Assembly: GCF_030068455.1 (NCBI RefSeq)
Contig: NZ_JAQOSQ010000029.1
Span: forward strand, 1 to 44,187
Length of the DNA stretch: 44,187 nucleotides
Source: Roseofilum casamattae BLCC-M143
GTDB lineage: Bacteria; Cyanobacteriota; Cyanobacteriia; Cyanobacteriales; Desertifilaceae
Reading direction: 5' to 3'
Positions 4,732-43,848 of this stretch are shown here, piece by piece. A program made the position numbers and the translations under genes. Under the pieces are notes generated by a model, which did no database searches, had not been told where the DNA came from, and saw nothing but the letters and a program-made list of their open reading frames with translations. Every line of letters starts with the position of its first letter. The first letter of the stretch is position 1.

Positions 4732-5901
4732 TCAGACACTGCTAAGCTGCTGCTTTAACTGCTGACAGTCTACTCCGCACTCTTGTAAAACGCGCATGGC
4801 CATACCACCACCCGTCTCGCCTTCTTGCAAAATGCCGAGCAGTAGATCTTGGGGATTTATCTGTTTGTGACCTTGCTGTTTTGCCTGTTCGGCAGTTAGC
4901 TCCAGCACCCGGTAAGCACGGGGCGTAAACGGAATTTCTGCTGGAATTTTTGTCGCAGGAACAGTACATTTAGCTAACCAGTTGCGGAAGAGGTTTTGCG
5001 CAATAATGAAGTCCACTCCGTGGTTTTTCAGAGCTTGTGCTGCTGAGGATGTTTCGATCGCTAGCAATCCTAAAAGTAGCCCTTCTGTACCGAACCAATT
5101 AAGATGTAGCTCCCGCATACTTTCCTGTCCTCGAGTCAACACTTCACGGGCTTCTGAGGTCAAGCGATCCAACGAAAACCCGACCATTTCTTCTCGAACT
5201 GACAGTAGCGCCACTGCCTTGAGAATATAGTCCAGCGTGGGGGCATCTAATGTACCCCAGCTCGCGGCTTCAGCTCCTTCTTTCTGATAGGTCTGGGCAA
5301 GGGCTTCATAGAGTTTTAGGTCACCACCGACAAATGACACGATACCATCACGCCAGTACCTGGCCAGTTGCTGTACCTCTGGAGAATTGAGGTCGCGACC
5401 TTGGGCAATCTGCGATCGCACCTGCTCCAGAAAATGGAGCCACTCGGTCTGCTCCTGATTCAATCGAGCTTCAAGCAAATCGTTTTGTTCTTGAGTCAAA
5501 TATTGTTGAGTCATGGTGAGGTTTTCCATTATCTGTAAGAGATCGTCAACCGCAACCGCTTGAGAGGTCTGGAGTTGTCGGGATAGGCTGCTGAGCTTGG
5601 CAAAGAGCAACTGCGACACAGCCATCTGCTCTTGGAGTTGCGCCAAATGCAGATCGATCGCATTAGGTAGAGAGAAGTCGGGATTCTCCAAACACTCGCG
5701 AACTTCCTTGAGTGCAAAACCCAACTGTCTCAACGACAGAATTTGCTGTAGCCGTGCAATGTCTGCTTCGCTATACAGTCGATACTCCGCCTCAGTGCGG
5801 TGCGAGGGCACCAGCAAGCCAATCTGGTCGTAGTACCTCAAGGTTCGGATAGATAGTCCGGTTTGTTTTGCCAACTCCCCGATTTGTAACAGCTTTGGCA
5901 T
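4732..5901 (-). CDS. MerR-family regulator with TipAS-like and Clp N-domain modules
   Basis: Residues 1-70 are a MerR winged-helix domain (LLQIGELAKQTGLSIRTLRYYDQIGLL), followed by a dimerisation coiled coil. Residues of about 140-225 resemble the TipAS/antibiotic-binding domain, with LNSPEVQQLARYWRDGIVSF and the WGTLDAPTLDYI tail. Residues 240-385 are two repeats of a ClpA/ClpC N-domain: LTSEAREVLTRGQESM...GTEGLLLGLLA and FTPRAYRVLELTAEQA...NPQDLLLGIL. I start at ATG 5901 because GAGG stands eight bases before it; a TTG at 5919 is the alternative. Upstream is a MerR-type promoter with a 19-bp spacer, so autoregulation is likely. The Clp N-domain normally binds adaptors or substrates of Clp protease, so the fusion could link proteolysis signals or a ligand to transcription. 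The ligand and targets are unknown. Confidence 0.88.
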   Translation of the reverse strand: MPKLLQIGELAKQTGLSIRTLRYYDQIGLLVPSHRTEAEYRLYSEADIARLQQILSLRQLGFALKEVRECLENPDFSLPNAIDLHLAQLQEQMAVSQLLFAKLSSLSRQLQTSQAVAVDDLLQIMENLTMTQQYLTQEQNDLLEARLNQEQTEWLHFLEQVRSQIAQGRDLNSPEVQQLARYWRDGIVSFVGGDLKLYEALAQTYQKEGAEAASWGTLDAPTLDYILKAVALLSVREEMVGFSLDRLTSEAREVLTRGQESMRELHLNWFGTEGLLLGLLAIETSSAAQALKNHGVDFIIAQNLFRNWLAKCTVPATKIPAEIPFTPRAYRVLELTAEQAKQQGHKQINPQDLLLGILQEGETGGGMAMRVLQECGVDCQQLKQQLSSV

Positions 5902-5948
5902 AAGTTGCCTCGAATCCAATTTCCCAGGAAATTACGGTTGATGACTGA

Positions 5949-7097: not shown

Positions 7098-7748
7098 TTA
7101 CCTTTGTTTGCGACGTAACGTTAATAAGCTCCCACCAAAAATGCCAAAAGCCAAGATAGACGATGGCTCGGGAACATTGGCTGAAACTCCAACTGCCTCT
7201 AGCCTTACATTATCAAAATAAGCATCTCCTGCTACCCCTTCAGAACCCCCAAAGTCCTCAAGCATAATACGAACGGCATTTGCAGTTGTAAATTCAAATG
7301 CATATGAATTCCAAGTCCCATCATCTGCAAGAACAGGATTTACCCCAGATGCTCCGGAAGTACCTGCTAGCCAAGTATGCGATCCTGGTAAGCCAAAACT
7401 ATATCCTGCAAAACCACCCAAATCGCCTGCAATACTTCCTGGCTGAGCTATGCCAAGATAATCAAAAGATAGACGGTAACTCCCCGAATCACTCAAAAGA
7501 GGTAGTGAACTGAATACGTCACCTCCTCCAGTGAGTGCAGTAAAATTCAAAACTTGATTTATAGGATTCAATGGATCTGTGATAATTTGACCGGAATGAG
7601 ATCCACCACTTTTCCCAACCCACTGTGACAAACCTGATTCAAAACTGTCGGAGAACAAAACTAGATCGGCAGCCTGGGCGGAGTGATATAAATTCAGCCC
7701 AATAAAACCAACACAAGTAATAGCAAAATACTGAAACGATCTAGCCAT
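7098..7748 (-). CDS. PEP-CTERM sorting-domain protein (secreted)
   Basis: The protein has 216 residues, with a signal peptide at 1-26 (hydrophobic core ITCVGFIGLNLYHSAQA, cut after AQA). The middle beta-sandwich-like region is rich in Gly, Ser and aromatic residues (FSDSFESGLSQWVG, YRLSFDYLGIAQPG, AYFDNVRLEAVGV), like carbohydrate-binding jelly-roll domains. The C-terminus is a classical PEP-CTERM anchor: VPEPSS, then the membrane segment ILAFGIFGGSLLTL, then basic RRKQR. Such proteins are exported and processed by the EpsH/exosortase system, usually in exopolysaccharide producers. Its partner in the envelope is unknown. It stands alone on this strand. Confidence 0.9.
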   Translation of the reverse strand: MARSFQYFAITCVGFIGLNLYHSAQAADLVLFSDSFESGLSQWVGKSGGSHSGQIITDPLNPINQVLNFTALTGGGDVFSSLPLLSDSGSYRLSFDYLGIAQPGSIAGDLGGFAGYSFGLPGSHTWLAGTSGASGVNPVLADDGTWNSYAFEFTTANAVRIMLEDFGGSEGVAGDAYFDNVRLEAVGVSANVPEPSSILAFGIFGGSLLTLRRKQR

Positions 7749-7904
7749 AATTAGCTATACCTCTGAAGAAAATACTGGTAACACTAGAGCTACTTAACAC
7801 ACCAAGATTCGCAAATGGGTATTTTTTTGCTACAAAGTGCTTATACAGTAGATTATCACTAGTTTCTTTTTTGTCAAGTCTAAGTGAGCGTATAATACAC
7901 AAAA

Positions 7905-8070
7905 TAACAATAGCCGATGCCCTGAGGAGTCCACAAGCAAATGGAATAAAACCGTCCTGCTCCTCGGGGGTAAGGGCATCCCAACGGTCTTGACGAACCC
8001 AGGCAGCATCTGGAGAGCGGTTTGCGCCATTGAGGAGTTCAAATCCTGTAGAAGAGTCAAAAGCTCGACC
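7905..8070 (-). pseudogene. Uma2 gene fragment
   Basis: On the minus strand this segment reads SFDSSTGFELLNGANRSPDA, then AWVRQDRWDALTPEEQDGFI. It is nearly the same as residues 84-122 of the intact Uma2 protein encoded just to its right (FDSSSGFELPNGANRSPDAS). No start and no C-terminal half remain, and similarity stops after GFIPF. It is a decayed partial copy. The surrounding stretch 7749-8165 holds no other gene that I can support. Confidence 0.8.
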
Positions 8071-8165
8071 TAGTAGGGTAGCGTTGGCTTAATACCAAAC
8101 ACTGAAGTTGACTGGTGATGCTGAGGTTGCGATGACCGGTGAAGCACAATAAAACCTTGTTTCCC

Positions 8166-8777
8166 TCATGCCCAAACCCGCTTCAGCGTCAGTGTAAACC
8201 CTGGCAAAACCGGCTCCCCAGATAATCTCATCGGATTCTCTAACACCTCAACCGCTTGACCCGGACGATAAATTTCCACCCGCTTATTTTTTGGGTCAAT
8301 TAACCAACCTAACTGCGCTCCATTCTCCAAATATTCCTGCATCTTTGCCCGCAGTTCCTTGAGAGTATCAGTTTCCGATCGCAATTCCACCACAAAGTCG
8401 GGACACAGGGGGGCAAAACCCTTGCGTTGCTCTGGGGTCAGAGCATCCCAACGCTCTTGAGGTAACCATGAAGCATCGGGAGATCGGTTTGCTCCATTAG
8501 GGAGTTCAAACCCACTCGAAGAATCAAAAGCCAAACCATGACCTCCTTCTTCTTCAATCCACCGGGCGAGGAAATAACTGAGTTTCAAGTTGCGATGGCC
8601 AGTTTCACTACCTGTTGGTGGTGTCACGATCAATTCTCCTGTTGCAGTTCTCTCAAATCCAAGTTCGCGATTCGCCGCAGCGAGCATCGCAAACTGCTCC
8701 GATGTCACGCGCAGGGTCAATTCCTGGGGAAGTTGGAGCCATAGGGGTTTGGATTGAGGGGGAACTTGGACAACCAT
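8166..8777 (-). CDS. Uma2 family protein
   Basis: This 203-residue Uma2 (DUF820) protein is of the subtype with an N-terminal LRVTSEQFAMLAAANRELGFERTATGELIVTPPTG. The nuclease-fold core follows: RSPDASWLPQERWDAL, then DFVVELRSETDTLKELRAKMQEYLENGAQLGWLIDP, where the E and K of the ELRS...K pattern match the PD-(D/E)XK-like site. It ends with EPVLPGFTLTLKRVW. It starts at ATG 8777. Fragments of the same gene occur at 7905-8070 (middle part) and 10208-10305 (start and upstream part), so this is the surviving member of a local duplication. Its cellular role is unknown. Confidence 0.9.
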   Translation of the reverse strand: MVVQVPPQSKPLWLQLPQELTLRVTSEQFAMLAAANRELGFERTATGELIVTPPTGSETGHRNLKLSYFLARWIEEEGGHGLAFDSSSGFELPNGANRSPDASWLPQERWDALTPEQRKGFAPLCPDFVVELRSETDTLKELRAKMQEYLENGAQLGWLIDPKNKRVEIYRPGQAVEVLENPMRLSGEPVLPGFTLTLKRVWA

Positions 8778-8984
8778 TATTGCTACCTCATACGACTATT
8801 GGGCCACTATTTTATCTTACCCTGGAAGCGTTACAGAAAAAAAATGCAAGGGGCGATCGCTAACAAATTAGACTTCTAGAGTACCCCTCAGAAATTGCTG
8901 AAGCGATCGATTTTGGCAACCCATGGATAACATATACTTGATTGTATTGGGTTAAACCAGCCTCGTTACCACTTGGGAGGAAAA

Positions 8985-9401
8985 ATGCTGTACGAAACTG
9001 ACATCATCCAATGGGTAGAACAACAAGTTAACCTCATCCGATCGCAACGATATAGTGAAATAGATTGGGTTAATATTATAGAGGAGATAGAAGATGTGAG
9101 TAAGCGAGAACGAGACCGCTTTTTATCTTCCATTCGCTTAATAATTCAACATCTTTTAAAATGGGAATATCAACCAGAAAAACGATCTCGGTCTTGGGAA
9201 ATCACCATCAAAAGAGAACGCAATCACCTGAAACGCTATCTGAGAGATGCTCCCAGCTTAAAGCGATACTGGACAGATCTATCAAAAGTATATGGTGATG
9301 GGAGAGCTGATGCGGCTAACGAAACCGGGATTGACGATTGGGATTTTCCAGAAGATTGTCCTTACTCCCCCGAACAAATTCAATCGGATTGGTTTCCCTA
9401 G
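8985..9401 (+). CDS. DUF29 domain protein
   Basis: This is a typical short cyanobacterial DUF29 protein of 138 residues: YETDIIQWVEQQVNLIRSQRYSEIDWVNIIEEIEDVSKRERDRFLSSIRLIIQHLLKWEYQP at the N-terminus, and the family-typical tail DDWDFPEDCPYSPEQIQSDW at the C-terminus. I start at ATG 8985, which has GGGAGG seven bases upstream. DUF29 genes are found scattered among Uma2 and toxin-antitoxin-like genes in cyanobacteria. No biochemical function is established. Confidence 0.9.
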   Translation: MLYETDIIQWVEQQVNLIRSQRYSEIDWVNIIEEIEDVSKRERDRFLSSIRLIIQHLLKWEYQPEKRSRSWEITIKRERNHLKRYLRDAPSLKRYWTDLSKVYGDGRADAANETGIDDWDFPEDCPYSPEQIQSDWFP

Positions 9402-9640
9402 AGGAGCTAGCGTAAAGCCCTAAAACCACTTAAATTTATTTAGGAGGGTGATGTTGATGCCAATGGCGAGCAATATCAACTCGATGGCAAATCCAAACGC
9501 GATCGCACCGTTGCACGTAATCTAAAAATCTCGCTAATGCGGCAGTTTTGCCAGGACGGCCGCATTGGCAGCAGTGCAATTCGATACTCATCATTTTGGG
9601 GCGGGTTTCCCCTTCGCAATAGAGTACATAAACTGAGTTT
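9398..9640 (-). pseudogene. 5'-truncated second copy of the puuE-like gene
   Basis: On the minus strand the frame ending at 9436 reads MMSIELHCCQCGRPGKTAAL, then ARFLDYVQRCDRVWICHRVD and IARHWHQHHPPK. It mirrors the C-terminal 60 residues of the intact gene at 10337-11245. Nucleotide similarity runs from about 9398 to 9628 and corresponds to 10303-10535, including sequence beyond the stop codon. The frame is still open but everything upstream is missing, so I call it a pseudogene. It shows that a segment carrying this gene was once duplicated. Confidence 0.82.
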
Positions 9641-9659
9641 AAATGTAGAATTTTAAAGA

Positions 9660-10181
9660 TTATCTACGTCCTGATGTATCCCAATAGGTGGGATGCATAA
9701 ACGGTTCTACAGCAATAGTTTCGCCGCTTAGGTGATTCCCAGACCCCGCATTCAGTTCAAGCATCATCCACGCTTCTGGCATTGTCAGAAGGTCAGGATA
9801 TGGTGTTTGTTTATCTGTTGCTACAAATCCATATTGTGGATAATATGTTGGCACTCCTAGTACGAAAATAGCATCTGTTCCAATAGATTTAAGGTGTTTA
9901 ATTCCGGTTTCAATCAGCTCTTTACCCACACCCTGTCGTTGATACTCGGGTAACACACCAAGAGGTGCTAGCAAGTAACACTTCCTTTCAGGGCTATCTT
10001 TAAATGCAAATGGGGTAAAGAGTACATTACCGACAATCTTCCGATCGCGCTTGACGCTGATTGAAATAGTTTCTGGCAATTTGAGGAAATCTTCTGCAAG
10101 TTTAGCGATTTCCTCTCCTTCTTCTTCACCAAATGCTAAAAAATGAATATTTTTGATAATTTTTTTCTCGGAATGATTCAC
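9660..10181 (-). CDS. GNAT family N-acetyltransferase (YhbS-like)
   Basis: This 173-residue acetyltransferase is of the GNAT fold and uses acetyl-CoA. The key acetyl-CoA-binding motif A is LLAPLGVLPEYQRQGVGKEL (about residues 70-89), followed by GTDAIFVLGVPTYYPQYGF, which is typical of the YhbS subgroup, and LELNAGSGNHLSGETIAVEPFMH. The first strand is short, so the start may be slightly trimmed. It sits between a fragment of the puuE-like gene and a fragment of the Uma2 gene, so it lies inside the duplicated stretch. Its acceptor substrate is unknown. Confidence 0.87.
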   Translation of the reverse strand: MNHSEKKIIKNIHFLAFGEEEGEEIAKLAEDFLKLPETISISVKRDRKIVGNVLFTPFAFKDSPERKCYLLAPLGVLPEYQRQGVGKELIETGIKHLKSIGTDAIFVLGVPTYYPQYGFVATDKQTPYPDLLTMPEAWMMLELNAGSGNHLSGETIAVEPFMHPTYWDTSGRR

Positions 10182-21227: not shown

Positions 21228-23714
21228 TTATTCTTTAATCAACCCTAGAGTTTTCTTTAATTGTACCCATTTCATCCGCAACCGCCAGGCTTTGTTTGCC
21301 TTCATCGCTGCCAGTTCTAAATTGCGGTGATGCACTTGCGAGTTCAAATCTTGCAGTTGACTGTTCAATTCCGTTTGAATTTGGCCGGAAACTGCATGAA
21401 CGTTTTGTAACTCGGCCGTTGTTTGAATCAGTTGGTGATTCATTTGCACGGCTTCCGCATGAGATTGCTGTAGTCGAGCTTCGGTATCTTCGAGTCGATA
21501 TTGAGCTTCTTCCAATTGCGATCGCAATCGCCGAGCCGTATTTTTATACTCTTCGCACTCCGCTTGCATTTGCTCGAATTGAACTTTGCAATCTTGCGCA
21601 TTCTTTTGGATTAGTAGCTTCTGATATTCCGACTCCTCATAGCGCGATCGCATCCGTCGTAATTCTTCTTCTTCTGCTTCCAGTTCTTTTTGCTTCAAGG
21701 TTAACAATTTCTGGTACTTTGAGGCACTGCCGACCTCTTGCCAACTGGTAAATGCCCAATCTTGGGAGCTATAGCTTTCCAGAGCTTTTAATCCCGTTTC
21801 ATAATCAATTTCCACATTACTTTTCCAAGTACCGGCAGCAGTTTGCAGTTCCTCATAGATTGCGATCGCCTCGGGGAAACAGGCTTTAATAATTGCCGGA
21901 CGATAGGATTGGGATACTTCGCGATTGAGTAGTTCTGGTTCGATAGGATTCGTTTGCGGAATGCCGAGGGAAAGCTGCCACTGTTCTTCGATGCGAGCGA
22001 TCCAACCTTCCGGATTGCTGACAATAGCATCTAAATGAGCTAAGAAACAGCGATCGCGATTGGCTCGATAAAACTCGAGCATTTTCCGATTGTAATGCAT
22101 CCATAGTTCTACTGCTTTTTCGGGATAGGTGGCGACCACTTCATCGGAACCGCGACGGTAGAGAGAATCGACCACTTCCCAAGGCGAGCGATAGACTAAA
22201 ATAAAATAAGCATCCGGTACTAACGCTGCCCAAAAATCGAGAAATAACGTCGTGCGCGGATCTTTCCATCCCCACAGAGAGCGCTCGGATTTTTCCGCGA
22301 GCAATTGCTGTGCGGTTTTATGATAGCGAGTGGCGATCGCCAATTGTTCGGCGAGAGTTAATCCATCGATTTCCAAACCCTGAGAACGCAACACATTTTG
22401 ATGGAATTCAACAAAGTCTAAATCTTCAAAATGACCGCGATCGTTACCCACTTTTGCCCCCACCAAGCGATCGCCCAAATGGACGCCCACTTCATTTAAT
22501 AACGAAGCCGTCAGAGAGGTTCCCGAACGATGCATTCCAGCTAAAACAAACACGCCTTTCTCCGTACCCTTACTGTTATTGCGATCGCGGCGAGCGAGAT
22601 CTTCTAAAGTTTGGCAAGCAATAGTTCTTTCCAAAGCCAGATCCCCAGCATTAATCGCTTTAATCGTAATAATATCCTCATTGCTCACTTGAGAATGATT
22701 CAAATGACAAACCCAAGACCATTCTCGGTCAGTTCCCGGACGAGGTAGCGATCGGTGAATTGGCTTATTATTTACTCGCAATTCAATCGCTTGAATGGGA
22801 AGATCGGCATTTAAACTGGAAACCCGACCTTTCAATTCCCAATCGCCAGCAGAATTAAGTTGTATGCTTTCCAGAGAACCTTGGGGATGATGCTCGAAAG
22901 TCAAGTTAGACCAGTCGGGAGTTGTATTTTTCGTAATTAAATACAAGTCTTGGTGTTCGGCTAATCCTTTCGGAATGCGATGGTAAGTGGCATTCGCTCC
23001 GAGAACTTGGTTGAGGCTATGTTGAATAAATTCTTCGCTGACATACGTGCTCCCGTAAACCGAGGGATCTAAGCTGCGGCTTTCACTTTGGGGAATGAAA
23101 TGAATGCCAGATTCGGAAAGCGCGAAGGGGTTGGGAGCGAGGGTCACGTCGTGGGTACTGAAAATCAGCAATCCTCCGTCAGCCAGACTATTGTAGAGAG
23201 TTTTCAGCCAGGGAGTAAAGTTGCGTTCGGGGACATGGCTAAAGAAGGAGCTAGCGAGAATGCAGTTAAAGGGTTGTCCGGGTTTATATTCGTTCGGTTT
23301 TGCGGTTGAAGGAATGCCGTTGACTTGGAACTGTTGCGTTTGAAAGTTAACCGCTTCGGGATAGATATCGGAGACCGAAATGCGATCGCTCGGGATGGTA
23401 TTGGCCAGAAACCGAGTAAAGCGTCCGTATCCTCCCGCGAAGTCGAGAAAGCTGGTAATGTCATCCCAACCGCCAAAGTAGTAATTCGCGATCTGTTCGA
23501 CGGCTTGGAAGATGCGCAGCCCATTGCCATAGTAGCGGATAGCAGCTTGGACTGGGTCGCCTTCCGCATTCGCCAGCGCCGAGAGATACATTTCATCTTC
23601 AACCGCGATCGCGCCATTGAACGTCTGGGAAGATGGAACCATCGCAGTGAGGAACGACCGGACGACGCGATCGGTTTGCACGTCCTCAACTTGTTCAATT
23701 TCTCTGATACTCAC
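21228..23714 (-). CDS. Methyltransferase-sulfotransferase-coiled-coil fusion protein
   Basis: This 828-residue protein reads as several modules. Residues 65-260 form a class I SAM methyltransferase, with motif I FLDFAGGYGRFTRFL and SSFFSHVPERNFTPWLKTLYNSLADGGLLIFSTHD. Residues 275-370 are beta-rich. Residues of about 388-620 form a PAPS-dependent sulfotransferase-like domain: the 5' phosphosulfate loop is FVLAGMHRSGTSLTASLL and the 3' phosphate-binding motif lies in YFILVYRSPWEVVDSLYRRG. Residues 650-800 are a long coiled coil rich in Glu, Gln and Leu, ending in a basic tail KAWRLRMKWVQLKKTL. The domain order suggests a tailoring enzyme for surface polysaccharide or glycan; the substrate is unknown. 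Confidence 0.85.
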   Translation of the reverse strand: MSIREIEQVEDVQTDRVVRSFLTAMVPSSQTFNGAIAVEDEMYLSALANAEGDPVQAAIRYYGNGLRIFQAVEQIANYYFGGWDDITSFLDFAGGYGRFTRFLANTIPSDRISVSDIYPEAVNFQTQQFQVNGIPSTAKPNEYKPGQPFNCILASSFFSHVPERNFTPWLKTLYNSLADGGLLIFSTHDVTLAPNPFALSESGIHFIPQSESRSLDPSVYGSTYVSEEFIQHSLNQVLGANATYHRIPKGLAEHQDLYLITKNTTPDWSNLTFEHHPQGSLESIQLNSAGDWELKGRVSSLNADLPIQAIELRVNNKPIHRSLPRPGTDREWSWVCHLNHSQVSNEDIITIKAINAGDLALERTIACQTLEDLARRDRNNSKGTEKGVFVLAGMHRSGTSLTASLLNEVGVHLGDRLVGAKVGNDRGHFEDLDFVEFHQNVLRSQGLEIDGLTLAEQLAIATRYHKTAQQLLAEKSERSLWGWKDPRTTLFLDFWAALVPDAYFILVYRSPWEVVDSLYRRGSDEVVATYPEKAVELWMHYNRKMLEFYRANRDRCFLAHLDAIVSNPEGWIARIEEQWQLSLGIPQTNPIEPELLNREVSQSYRPAIIKACFPEAIAIYEELQTAAGTWKSNVEIDYETGLKALESYSSQDWAFTSWQEVGSASKYQKLLTLKQKELEAEEEELRRMRSRYEESEYQKLLIQKNAQDCKVQFEQMQAECEEYKNTARRLRSQLEEAQYRLEDTEARLQQSHAEAVQMNHQLIQTTAELQNVHAVSGQIQTELNSQLQDLNSQVHHRNLELAAMKANKAWRLRMKWVQLKKTLGLIKE

Positions 23715-23949: not shown

Positions 23950-25017
23950 ATGTCAATTCAATCCATTTGGGCTTTCCTACGTCAATTCATTGCTCTGACT
24001 TTTTTTATTCTGGCGTTGTGTAGTATTGCATTGGGACGATTCAACGTTTGGGTTTACTTAGGTTGTGTCTTCATCCTGATAATGGTAATAAACTTCGATT
24101 GGGTTTGGATTGAGTTATGGGAGAAGATTCAATATCAAGAAATTCATATTCGTGCCGAGAACGGAGATAGCCAATGGGTGAAAGAGTATCTCGAACAAGG
24201 GGGAAATTCAGATCCCAAAACCGTTAAAGACATTACTCCTTTATACTTAGCTGCCAGAGAAGGTCATGTTGAGGTTTTTCGGCTTTTGGTCGAATACGGA
24301 GCAGATCCGAATCACAAAGTCTTGGATATGTCCCTGGATTCTACTCCGATTTGGATAGCCATGTATAAGAAACACGATGAAATTATAGACTTTCTTTTAC
24401 AATACGGTGTAGAGAAAGATGTTTTCTTTGCAATCTATTCCGGAGATTTGGAGGTCTTAAAGCAATCGATCGCAAACGAAGAAGACATAAATTTAATTCG
24501 CAGTAAAGAGCTGAGCAAGACTTGCCTAAGAGAAAAAGATTTATTGCATATGGCAATGCCACGAGATTCGGCTAATGCGGTTAAGTTTTTGCTAGAAAAA
24601 GGAGCGGACGTTGATATTCAAGATGAACGGGGGTTTTCTCTCCTACACTATGCCGCCATTAACAATGCATTAACCGTAGCCCAAGTATTACTCGAGCAAG
24701 GGGTTGCTGTTGATGCTGTTCCTTCTCATCACTCCCTAACACCACTGCACGAGGCATCTACTGGCGGTCATATAAATGCGATCGAACTGTTGCTAGATAA
24801 TGGAGCTGAGATCGACGCCCAAGAGTCTGTTACTTCTTATACGCCGTTACATCTGGCGATCTCGGGAAATTTTCCAGAAGCTGTCAAAGTTTTGATTTCC
24901 CGTGGGGCTTCTGTCAAGCTCGAAGATAGTTCCGGCCGGACTCCATTAGCTCATGCCGAACATTTAGGGAACCGAGCAGAAATTATTCAAATATTAGCCG
25001 ATCGCGAAGCCGAGTAA
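23950..25017 (+). CDS. Ankyrin-repeat protein with N-terminal membrane segments
   Basis: The protein has 355 residues. Two hydrophobic stretches near the start (about 10-30 and 32-52) anchor it in a membrane. From residue 65 on it is made of ankyrin units of about 33 residues: TPLYLAAREGHVEVFRLLVEYGADPN, TPIWIAMYKKHDEIIDFLLQYG, SLLHYAAINNALTVAQVLLEQG, TPLHEASTGGHINAIELLLDNGAEID, TPLHLAISGNFPEAVKVLISRGASV and TPLAHAEHLGNRAEIIQIL. It probably binds another protein at the membrane. Its final eight codons and the following DNA belong to a 79-bp direct repeat whose second copy lies 2.5 kb downstream, beyond the RiPP-type cluster. Confidence 0.9.
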   Translation: MSIQSIWAFLRQFIALTFFILALCSIALGRFNVWVYLGCVFILIMVINFDWVWIELWEKIQYQEIHIRAENGDSQWVKEYLEQGGNSDPKTVKDITPLYLAAREGHVEVFRLLVEYGADPNHKVLDMSLDSTPIWIAMYKKHDEIIDFLLQYGVEKDVFFAIYSGDLEVLKQSIANEEDINLIRSKELSKTCLREKDLLHMAMPRDSANAVKFLLEKGADVDIQDERGFSLLHYAAINNALTVAQVLLEQGVAVDAVPSHHSLTPLHEASTGGHINAIELLLDNGAEIDAQESVTSYTPLHLAISGNFPEAVKVLISRGASVKLEDSSGRTPLAHAEHLGNRAEIIQILADREAE

Positions 25018-25072
25018 TCTATCGATAATGTAGAGTGATATTGGCGGCGATCGCCACAACCCTATAGAAAAC
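24994..25072. repeat. 79-bp direct repeat, left copy
   Basis: This stretch covers the last codons of the ankyrin gene (LADREAE and stop) plus 49 bases beyond. It matches 27562-27640 with only three mismatches, same orientation and same length. The two copies bracket the cupin-maturase-peptide cluster. Confidence 0.92.
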
Positions 25073-25358
25073 TCTAATTGAGGAATGACATGAACCCCAA
25101 CATGCGAAAACCAACCCTTGGGTCATGCTTGCGTTCTCCCATGCTTGTTTAGACAGGAACGAGCGCACCCTCTAATGGGAATTAACGGAACTCACGCCAT
25201 TTTTCTTTCAACGTACCACCGATCGATTCTTGGGATACAAGGGGCTTCTAGCCCCTTGTTAAAGCACTTTGTTAGGCGATGAAATACACTACCAATCCGC
25301 AAGGACGGATCGCGAGCAATAGTGTAACTTCATTGCCACTGATTTTAGTGCTTCAGTA
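25073..25358. other. Non-coding region downstream of the peptide gene
   Basis: This is a 286-base stretch without a supported gene. It holds a 9-bp stem with a 3-base loop, CAAGGGGCT-TCT-AGCCCCTTG at 25238-25258, about 100 bases past the stop of the repeat peptide gene on the minus strand. No clear T-tract follows on either strand, so it is only a weak terminator candidate for the cluster. Confidence 0.5.
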
Positions 25359-25502
25359 TCAAACCACCCCATTGCAGGATAGTTTTTGAGTAGCGAACTC
25401 TCTAACCACCCCATTGCAGGATAGTTTTTGAGTGGCAAATTCTCTCACCACCCCATTGCAGGACAGTTTTTGAGTAGCGAACTCTCTCACCACCCCATTG
25501 CA
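25359..25502 (-). repeat. 42-bp in-frame tandem repeat (3.4 copies)
   Basis: Three complete and one partial 42-base units encode CNGVVREFATQKLS. The second unit is the most diverged, with changes in its Glu, Phe and Ala codons. The Val codon differs between the first two units and the last two, and the Leu codon differs between the first unit and the rest. All changes are silent. Confidence 0.95.
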
Positions 25503-25577
25503 GGGGGAACTAATCATCTGGTTATTACTTGATGTTTCGATTCGAGATTCTTGTTTGGGAAGATCGATGTATTGCAT
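25359..25577 (-). CDS. Repeat-containing candidate RiPP precursor peptide
   Basis: The 72-residue peptide starts at ATG 25577 with AAGG eight bases upstream. Residues 1-25 (MQYIDLPKQESRIETSSNNQ, then MISSP) look like a leader. Residues 26-67 are three exact copies of the 14-mer CNGVVREFATQKLS, and 68-72 is a fourth partial copy, CNGVV, just before the stop. Each unit contributes one Cys. The 42-base DNA units differ at five codons (Val, Glu, Phe, Ala, Leu), and every difference is a synonymous third-base change. It lies 63 bases downstream of a radical SAM/SPASM maturase gene on the same strand. This is the layout of a ribosomally made, enzymatically modified peptide with repeated core units. 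I do not recognise the family. A thioether or other Cys-linked crosslink is only an inference; a tandem-repeat protein without modification is the alternative. Confidence 0.75.
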   Translation of the reverse strand: MQYIDLPKQESRIETSSNNQMISSPCNGVVREFATQKLSCNGVVREFATQKLSCNGVVREFATQKLSCNGVV

Positions 25578-25640
25578 AAGAATACCTTAATGCTATTGAC
25601 TGTAAATTTACCACAGTATGCTGATAATGTAAACTAAAAA

Positions 25641-27041
25641 TTATTTCTTAACACCTGCTTTCAGGGTACTGATATCGGTAGCTGAAATTTCATCATTCCA
25701 ATCCGTAGATCGAGAAACCATACCCTTACCTTCCGCCATCCAAAACAACTTTTCGTGCAGTTTATGTTTCCAACTCGGACAAGGAAGAGCTGCTTCTCCT
25801 TGCAGATTTTCAGGATTGAGATACTTTTGAGCGCAGGAACCAGAACAGGTAGGCAGGAGTTTACAATTCGTACAAGTTTTTTCTTGAAATGGAGACCAGT
25901 TCAGCCATTGTTGATAACGGGGATCGTTAACTAAATTTTTCAAAGCAAAAATCGAGCCAACTTTGTGGTGGTTCTCGGAAACTGTTTCCAGACATTTATG
26001 TAAATCTCCATTGGGAAGAATAACCAGATCGTCAACTTTCAAAGCAGTACAAATACCAGAAAACTGAGCTGGCTTAGGAATAACTGTTAATTTCTTTTCA
26101 TAGGCATAACGATAAAGTTCTACTTCCAAATCGCCATAATCTTTTTTGCCCATGGTAGAGCCACATACTCCATGGCACTCTTGAGTTCTAGATTCTACAG
26201 GTGCAAAATAGATATTCAAGTTATCGCGTCCGCTTAAGCCCTCTGATACCAAGTCATCAATTAGAGCAATGATACTCATTTTATTTCGATAATCAATGTT
26301 GATACGGATGGCGATGGATAGGGAAGTTGTCTCAAGCACTTCTTTAATATTTTGGATGATTTTTTGAAACGTGGGTTTCCCTCCCAAAAGATAACGTCGC
26401 CGATCGTGAAATTCTTCAGAACCATCAAGGGTTATTTGAATTGACTTAACTTGCCGGAGATCTAAGTCTTGAGCAATTTTGGCATTCAAAAACCAACCAT
26501 TAGTAATCATAGTTGAATAATAGATGATATCTTCCCGATCGCAAATCTCCAAAAGCCGATCGGATAGCGATCTAATAATCCCAGGCTCTAGTAGAGGTTC
26601 TCCGCCAAACCAATGAACAGACAATGCCTTGATTTTTTTTACTTTAGATTTGACAAACTCAACTATTGCATCTTGTACTTCTGGCAACATTTTCACATGA
26701 GGCTTGTCCGCTCCTTGAGTACAATAATCACAACCAAAGTTACAACTTACAGTTGGTAAAATGGTTAGACTCAATAACCCACTGGCATCTCTTTGGAGAT
26801 TATATTCGCTCTCAATCTCTGCTTTCTCATTAAACGAATCAGCAACAATGTAACCTCCTTTAACAAAATCTTGCAGTTGAGGAGCTTCAATATGTATAGA
26901 TTCTTGAGCAACCGAGTTATAAACATTAATATCCTCATTATCCCACAAAGAAAAGGCTTGAGTCTTAGTATTGTAGGCAAGAGTACGCCCTTGGTTTAGA
27001 GCAATAAAAACATTATAATCAGATTGAGATGCGAAGTTCAT
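25641..27041 (-). CDS. Radical SAM/SPASM peptide maturase
   Basis: The protein has 466 residues from ATG 27041; a TTG at 27113 would extend it into the cupin gene. The N-terminal 90 residues (YNVFIALNQGRTLAYNTKTQ and on to FVKGGYIVADSFNEKAEIE) resemble the peptide-handling N-terminal region seen in SPASM maturases. The SAM-cleaving 4Fe-4S site is CNFGCDYC (C100, C104, C107), followed by HWFGGEPLLEPG and ITLDGSEEFHDRRR. The SPASM part has C331, C350, C390, C393, C399, C403 and C421 (KTCTNCKLLPTCSGSCAQ, then ALPCPSW), enough for auxiliary clusters. Enzymes of this class install thioether, C-C or similar crosslinks in ribosomal peptides. The repeat peptide directly downstream is the probable substrate, and the cupin gene upstream is probably cotranscribed. 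Confidence 0.93.
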   Translation of the reverse strand: MNFASQSDYNVFIALNQGRTLAYNTKTQAFSLWDNEDINVYNSVAQESIHIEAPQLQDFVKGGYIVADSFNEKAEIESEYNLQRDASGLLSLTILPTVSCNFGCDYCTQGADKPHVKMLPEVQDAIVEFVKSKVKKIKALSVHWFGGEPLLEPGIIRSLSDRLLEICDREDIIYYSTMITNGWFLNAKIAQDLDLRQVKSIQITLDGSEEFHDRRRYLLGGKPTFQKIIQNIKEVLETTSLSIAIRINIDYRNKMSIIALIDDLVSEGLSGRDNLNIYFAPVESRTQECHGVCGSTMGKKDYGDLEVELYRYAYEKKLTVIPKPAQFSGICTALKVDDLVILPNGDLHKCLETVSENHHKVGSIFALKNLVNDPRYQQWLNWSPFQEKTCTNCKLLPTCSGSCAQKYLNPENLQGEAALPCPSWKHKLHEKLFWMAEGKGMVSRSTDWNDEISATDISTLKAGVKK

Positions 27042-27093
27042 GCGTTTAATCCAAATAAGTGGAAGGATTGGTGTCTTTAGTGTTAAATAAGCT

Positions 27094-27435
27094 TCAAAGC
27101 TCTTCTGGAGCAAAGTTATTTTTTTCGTCCAGATTAATTGGCATGGTTAACCCAATGAGCCGCTTAGATGGCTTGGTGATTTTAACACTATGAAGAGCAC
27201 GAGCTGGTATAAATAGGTAATCGCCAGCCCTGATAGGATTGGGATAATTTTGAGGATAGAGTAATTCAAACTCTCCGCTTAAAAGGTATATATGAGTATT
27301 CCATAGATGCCAATGTACATCATCTTGTTTGCCTGCATTAATCTCCTGGGAGAATGGCCAAAGATCTCGTTCCAGTATTTCTTGTAATGCCTGTTTTTTA
27401 CTAAAACAGTATGCTCTTTTTAAGTCTATTTGCAT
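27094..27435 (-). CDS. Small cupin-domain protein of the RiPP-type cluster
   Basis: This 113-residue single cupin has its first motif as DDVHWHLWNTHIYLLSGEFEL, with HxH and a His where the usual Glu stands. The second motif, AGDYLFIPARALHSVKI, carries the distal His. These residues could bind a metal. The protein starts at ATG 27435 and is the first gene of the minus-strand cluster, 53 bases before the maturase ATG. Cupins near peptide maturases can be oxygenases, epimerases or simply binding or stability factors; which applies is unknown. The sequence is not close to any named tailoring enzyme I know. Confidence 0.82.
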   Translation of the reverse strand: MQIDLKRAYCFSKKQALQEILERDLWPFSQEINAGKQDDVHWHLWNTHIYLLSGEFELLYPQNYPNPIRAGDYLFIPARALHSVKITKPSKRLIGLTMPINLDEKNNFAPEEL

Positions 27436-27561: not shown

Positions 27562-27640
27562 TTAGCCGATCGCGAAGCCGAGTAATCTACCGATAATGTA
27601 GAGTGATAGTGGCGGCGATCGCCACAACTCTATAGAAAAC
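27562..27640. repeat. 79-bp direct repeat, right copy
   Basis: This is the second copy of the 24994-25072 segment (76 of 79 bases identical), including codons for LADREAE and stop but without the rest of the ankyrin gene. It lies upstream of the cupin gene and ends 83 bases before ycf51. The rest of the 27436-27723 gap shows no gene. Confidence 0.92.
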
Positions 27641-42289: not shown

Positions 42290-42352
42290 AGAAACCGGGT
42301 TTCTATTTATTGTTGGGTAAGGCAACAAATTTATCGTAGAAACCCGGTTTCT
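42290..42352. repeat. Inverted pair of AGAAACCGGGTTTCT repeats
   Basis: AGAAACCGGGTTTCT (42290-42304) and its exact reverse complement AGAAACCCGGTTTCT (42338-42352) form a 15-bp perfect stem separated by 33 bases. The structure lies between the Uma2 stop and the TPR gene start. It could act as a terminator or be a small palindromic repeat element. Confidence 0.8.
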
Positions 42353-42390
42353 TGATTCTTGGTTACTTTAGTGTTTTGGAGGAAAGAGAG

Positions 42391-43848
42391 ATGGACGGAC
42401 AACGGATTAATGCGTATTTAGAAGTCATCGCTAAGCTGCTGCAATGCAATGCGGGAGAAGAGATGGAGGTGTTGCGCGCCCATCAGGAGCTGCTGGATGG
42501 GGGGTTCGTGCAAGTGGGAATGGCAGTCGCGGAGCAGATGCGGAATGAGGGACGGGAAGAGCAGGGGTTGTGGTTGGCGCAGTTTTTGCAGGAGTTGGTT
42601 AACGCGCAGGAGAGCGAGCGTCCCCCTCGGGAAGACTATCGCGAGTTTATTGGAGATTTGATTTACGCAGAAGCCACGAAGAACAGACAACAAGTACAAG
42701 AGTTGTTGCGCGCTAACGTCCATTTATTGGATGAGAACTTTGCCGCTATTTTGCAGATTTTGGCTGAGGCGTATATTGCCCAACATCCGGAAGTAGAAAC
42801 TGATATGGTGGCGCTAGTGGAGAATCTCTGCGCTCGAATTAGCCAGTTTCCCTTGGGAGTATTTCGTATTAATCTGGAGATTGCTATTGCTGGCTATTTG
42901 TGGGTATTGCAGCATCGGGAAAAGAACCCGGAGCTATGGGCGCAAACGCAAAATAATCTGGGGGCTGCTTACTGGGATTTAGGGAAGGTTGCCAATACCG
43001 CAGAGAATTTAGAGAAGGCGATCGCAGCCTACCAGGAAGCTTTACGGTTTTACACCCCACAAGAGTATCCCCAATACTACGCCGGGACGCAAAATAATCT
43101 GGGGACTGCTTACAGCGACTTAGGGAAGCTCGCCAATACCGCAGAGAATTTAGACAAGGCGATCGCAGCCTACCGGGAAGCTTTACGGTTTTACACCCCA
43201 CAAGAGTATCCCCAAGACTACGCCATGACGCAAAATAATCTGGGGAATGCTTACGGTGACTTAGGGAAGCTCGCCAATACCGCAGAGAATTTAGAGAAGG
43301 CGATCGCAGCCTACCGGGAAGCTTTACGGTTTTTCTCCCCACAAGAGTATCCCCAAGACTACGCCATGACGCAAAATAATCTGGGGAATGCTTACGGTGA
43401 CTTAGGGAAGCTCGCCAATACGGCAGAGAATTTAGAAAAGGCGATCGCAGCCTACCGGGAAGCTTTACGGTTTCGTACCCCACAAGAGTATCCCCAATAC
43501 TACGCCACGACGCAAAATAATCTGGGGAATGCTTACAGCGATTTAGGGAAGCTCGCCAATACCGCAGAGAATTTAGACAAAGCGATCGCAGCCTACCAGG
43601 AAGCCTTACGGTTTCGTACCCCACAAGAGTATCCCCAAGACTACGCCATGACGCAAAATAATCTGGGGACTGCTTACTGGGATTTAGGAAAGCTCGCCAA
43701 TACCGCAGAGAATTTAGAGAAGGCGATCGCAGCCTACCGGGAAGCCTTACGGTTTCACACCCCACAAGAGTATCCCCAACAGTCTAAGTACAGGACAAAA
43801 GTTGTATGGGCTGAAAGAGAGAGTCAGAAAAAGAGAGCGGGTCAATGA
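42391..43848 (+). CDS. TPR-repeat protein truncated by an IS element
   Basis: ATG 42391 has GGAGG 12 bases upstream. Residues 1-185 are helical (EVIAKLLQCNAGEEMEVLRAHQELL...). From about 187 there are five complete and one partial 47-residue units of the form QNNLGNAYGDLGKLANTAEN, LEKAIAAYREALRFxTPQEY, PQDYAMT (42949 onward, 141-base units). The DNA units are nearly identical, with variation at a few positions (AYxDLG and RFxTP). The sixth unit stops at PQEYPQ near 43779; the next residues QSKYRTKVVWAERESQKKRA are read from the end of an inserted IS4-type element. The original C-terminus, and any effector domain there, is lost from this position. Confidence 0.85.
   Translation: MDGQRINAYLEVIAKLLQCNAGEEMEVLRAHQELLDGGFVQVGMAVAEQMRNEGREEQGLWLAQFLQELVNAQESERPPREDYREFIGDLIYAEATKNRQQVQELLRANVHLLDENFAAILQILAEAYIAQHPEVETDMVALVENLCARISQFPLGVFRINLEIAIAGYLWVLQHREKNPELWAQTQNNLGAAYWDLGKVANTAENLEKAIAAYQEALRFYTPQEYPQYYAGTQNNLGTAYSDLGKLANTAENLDKAIAAYREALRFYTPQEYPQDYAMTQNNLGNAYGDLGKLANTAENLEKAIAAYREALRFFSPQEYPQDYAMTQNNLGNAYGDLGKLANTAENLEKAIAAYREALRFRTPQEYPQYYATTQNNLGNAYSDLGKLANTAENLDKAIAAYQEALRFRTPQEYPQDYAMTQNNLGTAYWDLGKLANTAENLEKAIAAYREALRFHTPQEYPQQSKYRTKVVWAERESQKKRAGQ
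42949..43779 (+). repeat. 141-bp tandem repeats encoding TPR units
   Basis: Five full copies start at 42949, 43090, 43231, 43372 and 43513, and a partial copy starts at 43654. Each encodes a 47-residue TPR-type unit. High identity between units points to recent amplification by slippage or recombination. Confidence 0.93.

Follow-up and report, generated by a model that had tools for sequence, protein, structure and literature searches.

A maturase-precursor pair in Roseofilum casamattae with a new type of Cys-repeat core on a Cef/TIGR04463 scaffold

A 44,187 nt stretch of Roseofilum casamattae BLCC-M143 (contig NZ_JAQOSQ010000029.1, positions 1-44,187; hereafter the window) encodes, on its minus strand, a radical SAM/SPASM maturase followed directly by a 72-residue peptide with 14-residue Cys repeats. 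The two genes are a genuine maturase-precursor pair of a ribosomally synthesized and post-translationally modified peptide (RiPP), in which a new type of core is placed on the Cef/TIGR04463 scaffold. We consider it probable that the pair is a compact, mobile RiPP unit, whose maturase, guided by an N-terminal tag of the precursor, modifies each repeat, most likely by introducing one thioether per repeat. The original prediction, made from the letters alone, had described three minus-strand genes in the order cupin, maturase and peptide (113, 466 and 72 residues), a full CxxxCxxC site, seven SPASM cysteines and 3.4 repeat copies. All of these were confirmed, and the positions agreed. The elements of the pair are as follows.

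25641..27041, minus strand: radical SAM/SPASM maturase of TIGR04463 type, 466 residues from the ATG (490 residues from a TTG start)
26778..27041, minus strand: N-terminal maturase domain (residues 1-88) resembling a RiPP recognition element (RRE), putatively leader-binding
26721..26744, minus strand: radical SAM cluster site CxxxCxxC, residues 100-107 (coordinates derived by hand from residue numbers)
25779..26051, minus strand: SPASM region with seven cysteines invariant in an alignment of 22 maturases (coordinates derived by hand from residue numbers)
25359..25577, minus strand: precursor peptide, 72 residues, identified by its open frame, a 58-residue counterpart in a second genome of the genus, near-synonymous repeat variation and the N-terminal tag
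25503..25577, minus strand: leader MQYIDLPKQESRIETSSNNQMISSP, with the family tag as residues 1-7
25362..25502, minus strand: core, three copies of CNGVVREFATQKLS and a terminal CNGVV, from frame and tandem-repeat analysis

The repeat peptide and its counterpart in a second species

The core is encoded by a tandem array with a 42-bp unit, which is present in 3.4 copies (92% matches, score 244) and occurs at a single place in the genome. There is one Cys in each 14-residue repeat, giving a Cys spacing of 14. Five whole repeat units were compared, three from the window and two from G001, a second genome of the same genus (the window's own genome is G000). Only one of the eight distinct substitutions was nonsynonymous in the peptide frame. 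With random placement as few or fewer were obtained in 0.00035 of the trials, a value to be read with the caveat that repeat units belonging to one array do not represent independent samples. Because the substitutions are almost all synonymous and the null so rarely produces this outcome, the peptide frame is very probably translated and under selection. In the other five frames 8, 8, 8, 2 and 7 of the eight substitutions changed a residue. A second frame at 25289-25438, encoding a NYPAMGW-type repeat, was rejected as coding: it belongs to no family and all eight substitutions are nonsynonymous in this frame (+1). The reverse frame (−1) was also rejected; it has two nonsynonymous substitutions, but a stop in every unit.

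The peptide occurs in two of the six genomes of the genus, G000 and G001. The G001 peptide has 58 residues (MKYIDLPKQQSQTQTLSNNQMISSP, CNAVVREFATQKLS, CNGVVREFATQKLS and CNGVV) and one repeat fewer (2.4 copies). The original prediction had named a broken frame in close relatives as a sign against it; the frame is intact in G001 as in the window, despite the difference in copy number. Similarity of the DNA extends from the ATG of the maturase (27041) to about 25176, with identities of 90% in the maturase gene, 73% in the intergenic segment, 89% in the N-terminal part of the peptide, 94% in the array and 75% downstream; the maturase proteins are 89% identical. The maturase gave a ratio of nonsynonymous to synonymous rates (dN/dS) of 0.17. 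For the array codons the ratio was 0.03-0.05, varying with the choice of the omitted repeat (8, 5 or 7 synonymous changes against one nonsynonymous). For the 25 N-terminal codons of the peptide it was 0.65 (two synonymous and six nonsynonymous changes), and constraint is not evident there. The genes flanking the cassette differ between the two species, which indicates that the maturase-peptide unit has moved. The peptide gene follows immediately after the maturase gene on its strand, and the pair has been retained in a second species with other flanks; both points support the predicted RiPP pair with a repeated Cys core.

Array DNA was detected in two of the 59 relatives searched (G000, itself counted, and G001); in G008 there was no match, though this genome has a 41% identical TIGR04463 maturase. 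Given this distribution and the single genomic location, a dispersed or selfish DNA repeat was rejected. At the protein level, a precursor search of 388 genomes of the order returned G000 and G001 and six weak unrelated matches; inspected as protein, all six were other repeat arrays or chance similarities, and DNA comparison of the array for five of them gave nothing better than E 0.07. With NCBI family models and Pfam no convincing family match was obtained for the peptide, only sub-threshold ones (e.g. TIGR03000, 18.7 bits against 43.1). The Pfam scan covered a selection of 26 window frames (20 + 1 + 5).

Maturase family and N-terminal tag

The best family model for the maturase was TIGR04463, at 508.9 bits below the NCBI cut-off of 525, so that by score it falls outside the family. 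Next came Clo7bot (254.8 bits, cut-off 600) and CefB (235.8 bits, cut-off 600); the PapB-family model NF047865 gave 114.7 bits (cut-off 340) and the SCIFF maturase model 81 bits (cut-off 425). The radical SAM cysteines C100, C104 and C107 and the SPASM cysteines 331, 350, 390, 393, 399, 403 and 421 are invariant across the 22 aligned maturases, which is the make-up of a radical SAM/SPASM peptide maturase. The N-terminal domain has the winged-helix fold of RiPP leader-binding (RRE) domains, as in RRE-containing maturases. Its best match is the N-terminal domain of TigE, whose repeat is TIGSVS, without Cys; in sequence, the maturase profile matches TigE weakly (64 bits). Among solved structures, the best fold match over the full length was 5why/5wgg, titled sactipeptide thioether maturase, though over residues 88-442 a sulfatase maturase reached an equal Z; we take 5why/5wgg to be CteB.

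A genome scan for relatives of the maturase yielded 25 loci. Matches at TIGR04463 level (E 1e-70) were found in six of the 388 order genomes, four of them above the cut-off, and in one of 386 genomes drawn from the phylum (the window's own). The TIGR04463 model also gave matches in three of 14 control genomes, none above the cut-off. In the tree the window and G001 enzymes join L036 of Verrucomicrobiales (support 88/84, branch not starred), and with 17 further maturases they form a set of 20 rows (support 93/97, drawn open); among sets of up to half of the rows, the only starred one holding the window enzyme is the pair with G001. At least 13 maturases of this group adjoin frames of the Cys-every-fifth type or an annotated CefA. 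In the tree the window maturase groups with enzymes of or near the TIGR04463 family.

Many of the relatives' maturases adjoin CefA-type precursors of about 190-910 residues with Cys at every fifth position, often with C-terminal repeats of the CGAAACGADAC type. Pfam analysis of five such precursors identified ricin-lectin and crystallin domains in L034 and L047 and crystallin and fascin-like domains in L054, and gave no match for L036 and L042. Among nine proteins compared with NCBIfam, the CefA cut-off was exceeded by L034, L047, L040 and the second frame of L071; L045 was sub-threshold (23.7 against 30 bits), and L036, L042, L048 and the first frame of L071 did not match. In G313 two separate frames make up the CefA region at L071 (7769-10056), and at L035 (Microseira wollei, 7500-10070) the precursor frame stops after a 121-residue N-terminal part; the genes that follow look, by eye, like what we assume to be an IS607-type element. 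Stretches resembling LSDxxLxxVAGG in the L045 and L046 (Synergistaceae) and L036 precursors look to us like the ends of Nif11/NHLP leaders. A plasmid search with the maturase, which served for annotation only, gave 18 records, all below 60% identity; a Methylomagnum plasmid is annotated with CefA, a TIGR04463 maturase and a RiPP maturation radical SAM C-methyltransferase. No such methyltransferase was present among the scanned window genes.

The window peptide shares its N-terminus with these precursors. We defined a tag, M-x-[YFW]-[IVL]-[VD]-x-P, with which the MQYIDLP of the window peptide agrees. Among all 10,663 starts in 21 relatives' loci, the same loci from which the pattern was drawn, the tag occurred at 16, and 14 of these adjoined the maturase, shared its strand and had one or more Cys in frame, spread over 14 of the 21 loci; L042, L043, L044, L045, L046, L053 and L054 had none. 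In the window only one of 1,566 starts carried it, that of the precursor peptide. The relatives' precursors begin with MQFVVEP, MQYLVKP, MEYVDRP, MKYIVQP and similar sequences; MEYVDRP belongs to L036, which has Asp at position 5 in common with the window peptide. A score matrix made from 14 N-termini, hand-picked and in several cases internal starts chosen for fit, ranked the peptide first of 1,449 window starts (11.2 bits, the runner-up reaching 4.3). With a stricter matrix from the eight precursors whose longest frame begins at the N-terminus used, the values were 11.07 and 5.75 bits. The tag is common to precursors of very different, often far larger size. Very short tagged precursors also exist: at the Thermaceae loci L048-L050 peptides of 32-34 residues beginning with MRWVVKP, MKWVVKP or MRWIVRP lie beside the maturase. 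Unlike in the window, their cores are CGYNCGQNSGCGIN, CGARRPC or CGGRRPC, with no 14-residue repeats, and their maturases are only 34-35% identical.

The nearest known system is therefore TIGR04463 with CefA (NF038108). The two have in common maturases of 34-47% identity (20 distant relatives aligned), a precursor adjoining the maturase, in several loci directly downstream, the tag (14 of 21 relatives, strict pattern) and repeated Cys units. They differ in that the window maturase stays under the family cut-off, and in that the 72-residue window peptide has no CefA match, no lectin or crystallin domain by Pfam (L034, L047 and L054 have one or both) and Cys at every fourteenth instead of every fifth residue; no window frame with four or more CxxxxC pairs was listed. 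By the usual marks of a Cef precursor (NF038108 match, Cys every fifth residue) the peptide is not one, while by the tag it belongs with them. Homologous maturases sitting beside a different conserved precursor had been stated in advance as a finding that would weigh against the pairing. For the core this is what we found, and it does so weigh; for the leader it is not, because 14 of the 21 neighbouring precursors share their N-terminal tag with the window peptide.

The original prediction had also judged that the cluster looked undescribed. Here only part of the claim stands. No described equivalent was found in the searches made, but among NCBI's families the maturase comes nearest to TIGR04463, and members of that family are often neighbours of CefA-type peptides. 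Database models already cover the enzyme scaffold; as far as our searches show, the core is new. Literature searches for TIGR04463, Cys-every-fifth, NF038107, NF038108, CefA RiPP and TIGR04334 found no paper in the library searched, and broader searches no title or abstract start describing the unit. Because the family names led to no paper, the chemistry of TIGR04463/CefA may itself be undescribed.

Predicted modification of the repeats

We propose that the precursor of 58-72 residues docks by its initial tag, M-[QK]-Y-I-D-L-P, onto the RRE-like domain of the maturase, and that the radical SAM centre, aided by the SPASM clusters, would then modify every CNGVVREFATQKLS repeat, either on its Cys or by way of it. 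The likeliest product would have one thioether per repeat, between the Cys sulphur and a carbon within the same repeat, with a loss of 2 Da each; the outcome would be a chain of a few equal rings. Asn, Val and Glu of the repeat are candidate partners. A bond to a non-alpha carbon would be that of a ranthipeptide, a bond to an alpha carbon that of a sactipeptide. Cys-centred chemistry appears the likeliest because every repeat has one Cys and Cys is common to the cores of the relatives, and the modification is probably a set of Cys thioethers.

The ranthipeptide systems freyrasin PapA/PapB and SCIFF/CteB resemble the window pair in the radical SAM and SPASM layout, the leader-binding domain and repeated Cys motifs. 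According to the available part of PMC9413430, PapB, a characterised thioether maturase, forms six Cys-Asp thioethers in CX3D motifs and also accepts Glu; the gap separating Cys from Asp may be 0-6 residues long, turnover being incomplete at the two extremes (0 and 6). The window peptide differs in having no CX3D/E motif; its Cys-to-Glu spacing is CX5E.

Alternatively, the same pair could install another modification, such as a Val cyclopropane, an epimerisation or a C-C crosslink, with Cys as a spectator or a later ligand. We regard this as unlikely, yet Val cyclopropanation is the main rival to Cys thioethers. TvgB acts on the repeated Val motif TVGG of TvgA and makes cyclopropylglycine (PMC9062424, available part), TigE, likewise of a cyclopropylglycine system, provides the best match of the RRE-like domain, both systems share with ours a repeated core motif, and the window repeat keeps two valines in all five whole units. 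The TVGG repeats differ from the window repeat in having no Cys. Against this alternative, the listed precursors of the relatives are rich in regularly spaced Cys and Val is not a fixed feature of them, and the full set of SPASM cysteines and the best full-length fold match, a thioether maturase, favour thioethers.

That the peptide is a degenerate CefA stub carrying a selfish 42-bp tandem repeat, with a maturase lacking a substrate here or acting elsewhere, seems highly improbable: damaged precursor genes do occur in relatives (as in L035, before the insertion-element-like stretch), unrelated 42-bp arrays exist in cyanobacteria and the N-terminal part shows no clear constraint, but the near-synonymous variation, the frame kept in two species and the restricted occurrence of the array oppose it, as does the lack of a CefA match in G000 or G001 at E 0.01, in a search that placed G117 above the cut-off but whose sensitivity was incomplete, as the cassette-linked G008 precursor escaped it.

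The cassette could be placed in a wider frame, which we put forward tentatively and hold to be somewhat less than an even prospect. One maturase lineage with a constant N-terminal tag would serve wholly different cores, and the cassette would be an evolved core swap from a CefA-type precursor of hundreds of residues to a miniature one, in which the 14-residue Cys repeats are converted into a series of identical rings. If true, such a series would be a RiPP topology not described before. For testing, the cassette is a minimal case: it comprises a single enzyme and a single peptide of 58-72 residues with few repeats, in place of a precursor that runs to several hundred residues and carries lectin-like domains. 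The tag provides a simple rule for locating precursors beside such maturases, and could be a natural portable handle for peptide crosslinking.

Cupin gene and surroundings of the cassette

Four further elements lie around the pair.

27094..27435, minus strand: small cupin, 113 residues, Pfam Cupin_2; co-located, outside the conserved unit
25238..25258, strand not assigned: hairpin about 100 bp past the stop of the peptide, from the G001 alignment and folds
24994..25072, plus strand: left copy of a 79-bp direct repeat bracketing the cassette
27562..27640, plus strand: right copy, 96% identical to the left

The cupin had been proposed as a partner of the maturase, which our data do not bear out. 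Its Cupin_2 match is weak (29.0 bits, threshold 27.2), and its nearest solved relatives are quercetin 2,3-dioxygenase and YxaG (E 1.4e-7). The G001 cassette has no counterpart, similarity there starting at the maturase ATG; at E 1e-7 the cupin was matched in one of the 388 order genomes, its own, and weak matches (E about 0.005) in G001 and G002 sit elsewhere. A true second tailoring function, for example oxidation after crosslinking, would agree with the location of the gene 52 bp upstream of the maturase gene, which has the same orientation and is enclosed by the same pair of direct repeats, with a 2OG-Fe(II) oxygenase gene near the CefA cluster of the Methylomagnum plasmid and with the putative dioxygenase TvgC that accompanies TvgB (PMC9062424, available part), but given its distribution we judge it quite improbable. 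The cupin is at most an optional passenger or tailoring gene.

The 79-bp repeat has two copies in the genome, of which the left starts within the final part of an ankyrin-repeat gene. For five genomes of the genus, the 6-8 kb surrounding the DUF2518 gene contained no ankyrin match, and an empty site was not demonstrated. No comparable pair was found around the G001 cassette, where a 24-nt pair (88%) is present. The hairpin keeps its 8-bp stem in G001 with an altered loop (folds of −17.3 and −16.1 kcal/mol), and may mark the end of the operon.

Elsewhere in the window, 4732-5919 (minus strand), about 20 kb from the cassette, encodes a MerR regulator that combines a TipAS antibiotic-recognition domain with a Clp_N-like C-terminus. 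A methyltransferase-sulfotransferase fusion of 828 residues is encoded at 21228-23714 (minus strand), and a 141-bp unit repeated in tandem (5.9 copies with 93% matches) encodes the TPR protein at 42352-43848.
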